Made by a program: the position numbers and the translations under genes. Source: a virus. Taken from it: DNA of 21,854 nt. Each line of letters begins with the position of its first letter. The stretch's first letter is position 1. The notes below the pieces were generated by a model, which was not told the origin of the DNA, ran no database searches, and saw only the letters and a program-made list of their open reading frames with translations. This document shows, one piece after another, positions 13,059-21,297 of this stretch. The stretch covers positions 1-21,854 of the IMG/VR virus record IMGVR_UViG_3300032267_000912. One strand, written 5' to 3'.

Positions 13059-13226
13059 TGAATTGCTGTAAGTCCTTGATGTTTGACGGGGATGCGGGGG
13101 TTGCGGGGGTTAATTCCAGTTTACCCTCTATCTTTATTTTTCTTTTTTAAAAAAAATATAAAAATAGTAAAAGTACCCCCGCAAGTACCGCAAGCCCGTC
13201 GAAGATCAATGACTTAGCTGATTTCA

Positions 13227-18674: not shown

Positions 18675-18941
18675 TTAAATGTCCATGCCAAATTGTACTA
18701 CAACCACGGCGCGATCGTTTAGGATGCCGTCACGCATGATCCTGTACGACTTGCAAAAACTGGTGCCTGCGCCACGGCTCTCGCGGTGCCACAACTGGGC
18801 AAACGCCTCGTCGATTTCGTCGTCGACGATTGGCTCATAGTCGAGTGTTTGAAATAGAAAGTAGCCGTCGGTGGCGCTGTATCCATCAAAAATCTCACCG
18901 ATGGTGGTGATTTTAAAGTTATTGTGCTCGATTGGTTTCAT
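18675..18941 (-). CDS. Hypothetical protein, 88 residues
   Basis: MKPIEHNNFKITTIGEIFDG, then YSATDGYFLFQTLDYEPIVD and QLWHRESRGAGTSFCKSYRI, ending NDRAVVVVQFGMDI. A mixed alpha/beta protein with AGGAG before the ATG. A TATAAT on the minus strand at 18968-18973 lies 27 bases upstream but has no good -35. The gene is the first one downstream of hammerhead candidate 1. Confidence 0.7.
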   Translation of the reverse strand: MKPIEHNNFKITTIGEIFDGYSATDGYFLFQTLDYEPIVDDEIDEAFAQLWHRESRGAGTSFCKSYRIMRDGILNDRAVVVVQFGMDI

Positions 18942-19021: not shown

Positions 19022-19072
19022 GGTCATCATCAGTGCACGCATCACGTGCAGACGCCTTACGGCGTTTCGACC
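19022..19072 (-). ncRNA. Type II hammerhead ribozyme candidate 1
   Basis: Read on the minus strand: GGUC (stem II, 19072-19069), GAAA core, stem III ACGCC/GGCGU with a GUAA tetraloop, cleavage site GUC (C at 19051), stem I UGCACG/CGUGCA with a 5-base loop, core CUGAUGA (19033-19027), one extra U (19026), then GACC (stem II, 19025-19022). All conserved core positions are present. Cleavage is predicted between 19051 and 19050. The strand ends open at stem II, which defines type II. The only departure is the extra U between A9 and G10.1, a position where a viroid hammerhead is known to tolerate an extra base. It starts two bases past the stop of the 19075-19383 gene. Confidence 0.8.
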
Positions 19073-19074
19073 TG

Positions 19075-19383
19075 TTATTGGAAGTTAAAAAACTTATCGA
19101 TATCAAACGCACCCCACTCACTGGCCTTGGGCCCGATAAGCGTGCCCTTGTTGATATCGTGGTTAAACACTGCGACACAGTCCTGATCGAGCTCGGCGCA
19201 GAGCACTGTAAGTGAGCCGACTGGTTCGAAGTAGGTGACGACTAGGGTCACCTCACCACCATCTTTTGCGACTGCAATGTCGCTGATACCCTTGAGGTAG
19301 CGGATCGCGACGCCGATGGTTTGGTCGACTGTGTTTTGTTTGCCGGTGACTGGGTTATCCAGTCCGATGTTGATTGTCTGCAT
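19075..19383 (-). CDS. Hypothetical protein, 102 residues
   Basis: MQTINIGLDNPVTGKQNTVD, then QTIGVAIRYLKGISDIAVAK and GGEVTLVVTYFEPVGSLTVL, ending WGAFDIDKFFNFQ. Strands alternate with one helix. AGGAG lies before the ATG. The TAA is followed after two bases by hammerhead candidate 1, so cleavage would leave this mRNA with a short 3' tail containing stem III. No family recognised. Confidence 0.7.
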   Translation of the reverse strand: MQTINIGLDNPVTGKQNTVDQTIGVAIRYLKGISDIAVAKDGGEVTLVVTYFEPVGSLTVLCAELDQDCVAVFNHDINKGTLIGPKASEWGAFDIDKFFNFQ

Positions 19384-19398
19384 ATACTCTCCTGTTAA

Positions 19399-19650
19399 TT
19401 AGTCGATATTAATGACTCGGCGGTCTGCTGTCAATACTAGGTGGTTGCCGAGCTCGTCGGTGCCGATGGCAAACACCGGCACGCCCCTGAACTTACCACC
19501 ACGCAGGTGTTGGGCACGATACGACAGTGACAGGCTACGATCGCTCACGCCGATGTTAGTAAACCCGCCGTCAAGCAAACCATTTAGGAACTCAATGGTC
19601 AAGATGCGGTTCTCACTGCCTTTAATCTCAGAATGTTTTTGTCTTGGCAT
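19399..19650 (-). CDS. Basic hypothetical protein, 83 residues
   Basis: MPRQKHSEIKGSENRILTIE, then FLNGLLDGGFTNIGVSDRSL and SYRAQHLRGGKFRGVPVFAI, ending LVLTADRRVINID. I start it at 19650, where GGAGG lies six bases upstream. A longer reading beginning at 19677 would start inside the CUGAUGA core of hammerhead candidate 2 without a ribosome site and is rejected. Cleavage at candidate 2 leaves about 47 bases before this start, so the message stays translatable. Confidence 0.7.
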   Translation of the reverse strand: MPRQKHSEIKGSENRILTIEFLNGLLDGGFTNIGVSDRSLSLSYRAQHLRGGKFRGVPVFAIGTDELGNHLVLTADRRVINID

Positions 19651-19668: not shown

Positions 19669-19721
19669 GGTCATCATCAGTGCACGCCTAACGTGCAGAC
19701 AGCCGTGAGGCTGTTTCGACC
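19669..19721 (-). ncRNA. Type II hammerhead ribozyme candidate 2
   Basis: Same architecture as candidate 1 on the minus strand: GGUC (19721-19718), GAAA, stem III ACAGCC/GGCUGU (6 bp) with a UCAC loop, GUC with C at 19698, stem I UGCACG/CGUGCA with loop UUAGG, CUGAUGA (19680-19674), an extra U (19673), GACC (19672-19669). Stem III differs from copy 1 in sequence and length but stays fully paired, and all loops differ while the core is identical; this pattern shows selection on RNA structure. Cleavage is predicted between 19698 and 19697. It starts four bases past the stop of the 19726-20160 gene. Confidence 0.8.
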
Positions 19722-19725
19722 TGTA

Positions 19726-20160
19726 TTACTTAACCTCAACTATCTGCACGTCCACCCATGAGTCGCCGAGTGAACTGGCTAGCTTTTGGGCTAGATCTGC
19801 ACGACCACACCACCCTTGGATCACATAAGTATCATATGCACCCTCCGAGGCGTATCGCTCGATCTCAGCAATTGAATTAGCTTTGTACTGGGCTTGGTGT
19901 GCGTCCATGCCGATGGCTAGGATTGCGTTGCCCTTGGCTACATACTCGGCGATGCTTTTAGGTGTTTCCCAAGAGTAGACTGGCGCCTTGCCTAGTGCAT
20001 GGTCGACCATGTACTGGGCGTTGACGTCTGTGCAAACTGACGCCCAGTGCAGTGCCTTGGCTTTGCTTTTCTTGGCTACTACGATATGGCTGTAAGTACG
20101 GGCAGTGGTGCGGGTAAATGTTTGACCTGCAAACTCTACGGCGTATTTGGTTTTGCTCAT
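19726..20160 (-). CDS. Hypothetical early protein, 144 residues
   Basis: MSKTKYAVEFAGQTFTRTTA, then RTYSHIVVAKKSKAKALHWA and KAPVYSWETPKSIAEYVAKG, then QAQYKANSIAEIERYASEGA and VIQGWCGRADLAQKLASSLG. It looks like an alpha/beta protein with a basic N-terminal half. First gene of the leftward early block, so it would be expressed soon after infection. AGGAG lies before the ATG, preceded by a 10-bp hairpin and a half copy of the 24-bp palindromes. Hammerhead candidate 2 follows its stop. No family recognised. Confidence 0.75.
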   Translation of the reverse strand: MSKTKYAVEFAGQTFTRTTARTYSHIVVAKKSKAKALHWASVCTDVNAQYMVDHALGKAPVYSWETPKSIAEYVAKGNAILAIGMDAHQAQYKANSIAEIERYASEGAYDTYVIQGWCGRADLAQKLASSLGDSWVDVQIVEVK

Positions 20161-20173
20161 ATTTAAATCTCCT

Positions 20174-20186
20174 GTTAGTTAGTACT
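20174..20186. repeat. Half copy of the 24-bp palindrome near the early block start
   Basis: GTTAGTTAGTACT matches the left half of the four palindromes 0.5-0.75 kb further right. It lies 14 bases upstream of the 19726-20160 start codon, where a bound protein would block translation initiation signals or transcription. Confidence 0.45.
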
Positions 20187-20640: not shown

Positions 20641-20705
20641 CGCCCCTTTAAAACGCGCCCAATCCGTCAACTAGGGGAAACCCTAATCTTGTGGTGCGGT
20701 GCAAT

Positions 20706-20923
20706 AAGTTAGTTAGTACTCACTAACTTGGTGGGCGCGCCTAAATGCAAATGAGAATCATTATCATCTCGGCTCGGGCTACTCTATGTTAGTAAGCGCT
20801 CACTAACATACCGGCTACTTGGCAGGGGGGCGCGGTGCCTCCATGTTAGTTAGTACTCACTAACCTATGCGCTACTTGGCAGGGGGGCGAGGTGCCACGA
20901 TGTTAGTGAGTACTAACTTACAT
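20706..20923. repeat. Array of four 24-bp palindromes (iteron-like)
   Basis: Copies at 20706-20729, 20786-20809, 20843-20866 and 20900-20923 share the core GTTAGTNAGTACTNACTAAC or a close variant (copy 2 has AGCGCT in the centre). Copies 2, 3 and 4 are spaced exactly 57 bases centre to centre, and copy 1 is 80 bases from copy 2. Between copies 2-3 and 3-4 lies a direct repeat beginning GCTACTTGGCAGGGGGGCG. Regular palindromic spacing suggests a phage initiator or repressor binding array. Confidence 0.75.
20747..20765. promoter_or_regulatory. Fur-box-like sequence
   Basis: GCAAATGAGAATCATTATC matches 16 of 19 positions of the E. coli Fur consensus, including the whole right half. It lies between palindrome copies 1 and 2. 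Whether an iron regulator of the host binds here is inference. Confidence 0.35.
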
Positions 20924-20938
20924 CTTGGCGTTACAGCT

Positions 20939-21035
20939 GTGCACCAATCTGGTGCACGCGCACCAAAGCGGTGAATTTGTGCACCAATTTGGTGCACGGG
21001 GGGCTTTTTCATGATGCGATGCACCAATTTGGGTC
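20939..21035. repeat. GTGCACCA palindrome cluster
   Basis: GTGCACCAATCTGGTGCAC (20939-20957) and GTGCACCAATTTGGTGCAC (20979-20997) are 19-bp palindromes 40 bases apart. GCACCAAAGCGGTG lies between them, and a half copy, ATGCACCAATTTGG, starts at 21020. A second, distinct set of protein-binding sites. Confidence 0.65.
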
Positions 21036-21140: not shown

Positions 21141-21297
21141 TTTCACAATGTGAAACGGAATGCGCTAAGTCCTTGATGTTCGACGGGGATGCGGGGGTTG
21201 CGGGGGTTACTTTATTATTTTTATTATTTTTAAAAAATAAAAAATAAAGATAGAGGGAAACCTGGAATATACCCCCGCAAGTGCCGCAAGTGCCGCG
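21141..21297 (+). repeat. Second copy of the arm element, upstream of the rightward block
   Basis: Starts with TTTCACAATGTGAAA (21141-21155). It then aligns along about 150 bases with the minus strand of the 13044-13241 element, including CTAAGTC, TTCGACGGG, GCGGGGGTTGCGGGGGTTA and AATAAAGATAGAGGG. The right-hand arm is shorter than in the first copy. Both copies lie in the same orientation relative to the nearby 12-bp motif, so they are functional control elements rather than a random duplication. Confidence 0.75.

Follow-up and report, generated by a model that had tools for sequence, protein, structure and literature searches.

Why should a hammerhead ribozyme lie directly behind a stop codon in a phage operon, and would it cut the messenger there? 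The question arises from a viral stretch of 21,854 nucleotides (hereafter, the window), in which a sequence-only reading had picked out a type II hammerhead and proposed it, as a strong lead, as an mRNA processing site in an early operon.

Two hammerheads between small genes

Hammerhead copy 1 occupies 19022–19072 of the minus strand, where nucleotides 19072 to 19022 read GGTC GAA ACGCCGTAAGGCGT C TGCACGTGATGCGTGCA CTGATGA T GACC. Stem II pairs GGUC (19069–19072) with GACC (19025–19022); it is open and 4 bp long and, with stems I and III closed, this gives the type II permutation. After the 5′ strand of stem II come the core residues G12, A13, and A14 (19066–19068), the stem III hairpin ACGCC-GUAA-GGCGU (19052–19065; 5 bp with a GNRA loop, GUAA), the stem I hairpin (19034–19050; 6 bp, 17 nt, loop UGAUG, with the U at 19044 adjoining pair 1.6), and the core CUGAUGA (19027–19033), all on the minus strand. 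The hammerhead consensus predicts cleavage between C17 (19051) and U1.1 (19050), the position given in the sequence-only reading. The core and the NUH cleavage triplet are correctly placed in the three-way junction, together with one extra U (U9a, at 19026) between A9 and G10.1. The core had been described as fully conserved: CUGAUGA, GAA(A), and GUC are indeed present, but the U at 19026 had been overlooked. Immediately 5′ of stem II stands A11.5 (19073), the proposed partner in an A.U tertiary pair. The minimum-free-energy fold (−21.5 kcal/mol, z = −3.0) is exactly the hammerhead structure, and sequence and fold agree on the three helices, the open stem II, and the GNRA tetraloop on stem III noticed earlier.

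Copy 2 is found upstream on the same strand (19669–19721), with predicted cleavage at 19698/19697, the extra U at 19673, and A11.5 at 19722. Its stem III differs from that of copy 1 by compensatory changes. A covariance model built from the family (R1) gives 72.1 bits for copy 2, 68.2 bits for copy 1, and at most 11.4 bits for anything else in the window; in 300 first-order Markov randomizations of the window there was no match of comparable quality.

The gene order on the minus strand is gene 1 (19726–20160; 144 aa, phrog_32956, function unknown), copy 2, gene 2 (19399–19650; 83 aa, no family), gene 3 (19075–19383; 102 aa, phrog_11722, function unknown), copy 1, and gene 4 (18675–18941; 88 aa, no family). 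Copy 2 parts gene 1 from genes 2 and 3, and copy 1 parts these from gene 4. The UAA of gene 3 ends at 19075 and is followed by C, A, and then stem II, so that copy 1 does lie two bases behind a stop codon between small genes. In the window operon, ribozymes occupy only 2 of about 10 gene junctions; processing is therefore not obligatory. No promoter was identified for this operon. That it is an early operon is plausible from its surroundings, a repeat-rich non-coding region upstream and replication genes downstream.

A compact subclass of type II hammerheads

Relatives are numerous. In viral contigs, the exact pattern with the extra U matched 54 stretches, against 3 when that U was replaced by A, C, or G; the pattern without the insertion matched at least 120. 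A structure scan of the pattern-matched viral and genome-contig loci gave 278 non-redundant hammerheads among the matches listed. A second, independent pattern, in which the core and the stem I loop are fixed and the pairs of stems II and I are free, also matched at least 120 stretches, and with two core bases changed it matched none.

This mutated-core control bears on the most trivial reading, that ordinary mRNA hairpins or intrinsic terminators merely resemble a hammerhead. GC-rich hairpins after a stop codon are what such a reading expects. Yet the terminator scan called no terminator at the ribozyme, no U tract lies behind it, and the unpaired core bases are invariant; with zero matches for the mutated core against at least 120, core conservation refutes the reading in substance, and its probability is negligible.

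Several other searches add little. We did not observe a near-identical match to the window among INPHARED phages. The 102-aa protein also occurs in Achromobacter and Erythrobacter phages, whose whole records contain no R1 match. Blastn aligned copy 2 with many T7-like phages of Klebsiella; these matches cover only 35%–62% of the query, lie inside a tail gene, and were set aside as chance. The strict pattern hit 15 bacterial or archaeal genome contigs; those from Methanoregulaceae are without an R1 match, and those labeled Novosphingobium, Lachnospiraceae, and Bordetella have weak R1 scores only (24–30 bits) and are not relied on.

The relatives share a fixed architecture: stem I has exactly 6 bp, with a U right after pair 1.6, stem II has exactly 4 bp, and an A sits directly 5′ of stem II. 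Each feature turned up in sets that were not selected for it. Where the seed was stem II, the stem I hairpin of the matches listed is exactly 17 nt in 251/276, and a U follows pair 1.6 in 249 of these 251. In the set seeded on stem I, again among the matches listed, all four stem II pairs form in 93/97 with many different sequences, residue 11.5 is A in 96/97, and stem I is fully paired in 96/97, none of the three having been selected for. Over all 329 compact members among the matches listed, A11.5 is A in 326 and U follows pair 1.6 in 327.

Covariation in 51 diverse sequences is strong. Cells are paired at 99.3%, both sides have changed in 13 of the 16 pairs, double-change cells number 274 where shuffles give 88, and pairing falls to 28%–41% once the partner is displaced by one to three columns. 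These sequences were chosen by a scanner that required paired stems, and the unbiased figures are therefore those from the stem I-seeded set given above for stem I (96/97) and stem II (93/97).

With this fold, the strong covariation, the hundreds of relatives, and the empty mutated-core control, the assignment to type II stands, and at the level of sequence the window copies are confirmed as real type II hammerheads of a compact subclass. They share with the type II hammerheads already described (PMC3088659; RF02276) the permutation, the core, and the tandem occurrence between phage or prophage genes. In the published consensus, stem II is short, often 2 bp, and loop I forms a pseudoknot with the tail that follows stem II (PMC3088659, Fig. 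2A). The compact subclass differs by its 4-bp stem II, its fixed 6-bp stem I with a small loop, the lack of the pseudoknot, and the optional U9a. Among the 329 compact members in the matches listed, the mean helix between loop I and the tail is 1.68 versus 1.65 after shuffling. In contrast, members with a stem II of 3 bp or less have a loop I–tail pseudoknot of at least 4 bp in 8/8 cases among the matches listed; several of these share one operon (L037).

The sequence-only reading had pointed to a search with the Rfam type II models as a check. RF02276 scores copy 1 at 22.4 bits and copy 2 at 32.3 bits, both below its gathering score of 37, because that model is built on the different, pseudoknotted subclass. 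At the gathering score, it finds in 12 loci only three copies, all of the short-stem-II, long-loop kind and all from L037, and none of the 37 compact copies detected by R1 in the other 11 loci. In L037 (114–4271), pseudoknotted hammerheads with a 2-bp stem II occur beside copies that have both the extra U and the loop I–tail pseudoknot.

What might hold the compact fold in place of the pseudoknot is suggested by another hammerhead. The hammerheads of sTRSV and Schistosoma have one tertiary pair in common, in which the A at the end of the stem II loop contacts a U adjacent to residue 1.6 (PMC2553840). The type III sTRSV ribozyme resembles the phage subclass in having a U next to residue 1.6 and an A immediately preceding the 11.x strand of stem II, and in sTRSV these two form a conserved Hoogsteen pair (PMC2553840). 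The difference is that in sTRSV, with stem III open, the A is the last base of the loop closing stem II, whereas in the phage subclass stem II is open and the A therefore stands in the mRNA directly before it. By this analogy, an A.U tertiary pair would hold the compact fold instead of the type II pseudoknot. Covariation is not a test of such a pair, since both bases are invariant. The sequence-only reading had feared that a short 4-bp stem II may need extra contacts. The length is right, and the worry is answered, 4 bp being the rule in the subclass; with a stem of 4 bp, the near-invariant A is placed where sTRSV has its tertiary-contact A.

One compact member has been assayed. The hammerhead of Burkholderia phage Bcep176 belongs to the subclass by sequence (A-GGUC-GAAAC, stem I UGCACG-UUAUG-CGUGUA, 48.2 bits with R1). 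Its kobs is below 0.1 per minute, a slowness ascribed by the authors to an A6C change (PMC3088659). The window copies differ from it at that core position and in having U9a.

The extra U lies outside the consensus core and could slow the window copies. Among the matches listed, a single inserted base is U in 100/102 members, it is found on several stem II sequences, and close relatives mix copies with and without it. Natural core insertions are known elsewhere, after A6, after A13, and next to C3 (PMC3088659). Since U9a is nearly always U, on several stem II sequences and in mixed relatives, the comparison argues for a tolerance with a base preference and not for decay. On the opposite reading, U9a prevents cleavage or makes it conditional: copies with the U would be inactive relics, or would depend on a helper or a particular condition. 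Insertions near the core do cut the activity of other natural hammerheads (A6a and G2a/C2b; PMC3088659), and U-bearing and U-less copies side by side fit such a switch-off. But decay would not hold the inserted base at U with the constancy just given, nor would it preserve the perfect stems and invariant contact bases of the U-bearing members; moreover, one or two nucleotides between CUGANGA and the stems do occur in alignments of known hammerheads (PMC10085705). We consider decay or switch-off improbable.

Placement and a proposed cut between genes

Among the matches listed, 247 of the 255 copies away from contig ends lie behind a stop codon, at a distance of −4 to +6 nt in 205 of these 247, and 228/255 precede a Shine–Dalgarno sequence and a start codon. 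At random control positions in the same loci, a stop before and a Shine–Dalgarno sequence with start after are found in 13%. The predicted cut lies, among the matches listed, a median of 28 nt past the stop codon and 49 nt ahead of the start codon. In the multi-copy loci of the matches listed, all copies lie on one strand in 70/70, with consecutive copies a median of 455 nt apart. Within 5 kb, pattern scans find as many as 11 copies, all in the same orientation, the richest records holding 11, 11, 9, and 8 copies (both among the matches listed). The downstream proteins, mostly unknown and with a median of 91 aa, fall into 205 clusters among 261 (among the matches listed); the element is therefore not tied to a gene. 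Placement behind a stop and before a start, with one strand per locus, speaks for the mRNA processing site proposed by the sequence-only reading. A ribozyme that hides the ribosome site was rejected because the Shine–Dalgarno sequence lies 3′ of stem II.

From the architecture, the covariation, the invariant A and U, and the placement, all read in the sequences, we infer cleavage, the A.U pair itself, a stabilizing effect, and a gain to the phage. The copies are probably self-cleaving compact type II hammerheads, held by the A.U pair, that cut the polycistronic phage transcript between genes. The transcript would fold the ribozyme in the intergenic gap and cut itself after GUC. The upstream mRNA would then keep a short 3′ UTR, closed off by the stem III hairpin and a 2′,3′-cyclic phosphate, and the downstream mRNA would have the stem I hairpin at its very 5′ end, which would carry a 5′-OH and lie about 49 nt from the start codon. 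Such hairpin-capped ends should resist exonucleases and decay that depends on the 5′ end, and each gene would get its own mRNA level. With both ends capped, single- or few-gene mRNAs with their own stability would arise without a host nuclease. With only a few nucleotides between stop codon and stem II, a ribosome terminating there would mask the stem, and cutting may wait until it departs.

The extreme diversity of the downstream genes also suits another reading, namely that the ribozymes mark cassette boundaries: they would move together with small accessory genes and be kept, as short homologous repeats, wherever cassettes are exchanged, cleavage being a by-product or an insulation of the newcomer gene. 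Two close relatives (L006 and L025) match the window at 94% up to query position 902 and again at 96%–98% from query position 1224, which is the start of copy 1. In both, the gene slot between the ribozymes (window 19383–19075) has been swapped, and both carry an additional ribozyme. Against this, each of the three stems shows compensatory changes and the contact bases are invariant, which points to selection on the RNA fold and not on DNA identity. As a replacement for processing, cassette boundaries seem unlikely; the two may hold together.

A further reading starts from the type II geometry, from which one may suppose that gene-length RNAs with hammerhead-cut ends could circularize or be recombined, in a manner resembling exon shuffling. 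Stem II is shared within loci above expectation (55/77 pairs versus 0.125, among the matches listed), and in 14 loci found without a constraint on stem II its within-locus excess is larger than at most stem I and III positions. However, plain duplication also yields a shared stem II, stem I and III positions are likewise more alike within loci, and in 70 loci the difference for stem II vanishes. No RtcB ligase was found in 14 multi-copy records, and for other phage hammerheads a search by Perreault et al. turned up neither circular nor spliced products (PMC3088659). Circularization or recombination is, like decay, improbable. More doubtful still is its full form, in which halves sharing a stem II would religate into circular or recombined phage mRNAs and the array would work as a self-splicing-like system of half-hammerheads.

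Known systems and other features of the window

Cutting between the genes of a phage operon has a familiar counterpart. In phage T7, the early polycistronic mRNA is cut between genes by the host RNase III, and hairpin ends are left. T7 uses a host enzyme; here, the RNA itself would cut. Among ribozymes, tandem hammerheads flank prophage genes and are active in vitro as well as in E. coli, where one such triple was shown to cut (Perreault et al. 2011; PMC3088659). In haloviruses HF1 and HF2, a hammerhead (HHphage) similarly lies 13 nt upstream of an early gene start, and a transcript 5′ end has been mapped within 3 nt of the cleavage site (PMC3088659). HHphage differs by a core insertion near C3, by its single copy, and by belonging to an archaeal virus. 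A processing site in a phage operon is thus supported as a lead but is not new, having been proposed and partly shown in 2011; type II phage hammerheads were likewise known then (PMC3088659). To judge from the literature consulted, what is new is the compact subclass with its sTRSV-like contact, the failure of Rfam to detect it at the gathering score, the recurrence of U9a, and arrays with as many as 11 copies. The 2011 data set of Perreault et al. may already include some of the compact members.

A sizeable and well-defined natural ribozyme subclass, common in environmental phages, thus appears to be missed by the reference model. It offers a small natural type II hammerhead (about 53 nt) whose proposed tertiary contact, a single pair, is directly testable, and natural pairs with and without the unusual core insertion U9a. 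The operons with up to 11 copies are a test bed for the self-cutting of polycistronic phage mRNA into single-gene messengers, and small modular devices that cut between cistrons would also be of use in building expression constructs.

Other features of the window were observed beside the ribozymes. In the leader from copy 1 to gene 4 (19014–18975, minus strand), a CCUAGG...CCUAGG hairpin is common to L006, L025, and L052; as a structured element it was rejected, its fold being no better than that of shuffles (z = −0.98). The long non-coding stretch upstream of the operon contains iteron-like palindromic repeats (GTTAGTTAGTACTCACTAAC and variants), in four copies at 20700–20927 with a partial fifth at 20174, which are candidates for an origin or for regulator binding. 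A further pair of palindromes, GTGCACCAAT(T/C)TGGTGCAC, follows at 20938–20998. Two similar segments, each with CCCCCGCAACCCCCGCATCCCCGTC and an A/T-rich hairpin, occur 8 kb apart, at 13071–13215 and at about 21150–21290. Rfam also gave weak matches in the window, to CRISPR repeats, plant miRNAs, and ARRPOF; these were judged to be chance, the miRNA ones arising because of the twin CCCCCGCAACCCCCGCATCCCCGTC segments. A DUF2815 RNA (RF03084, 75.6 bits) is present at 997–1056 on the minus strand, directly upstream of the gene for an Enc34-type ssDNA-binding protein (999–478).
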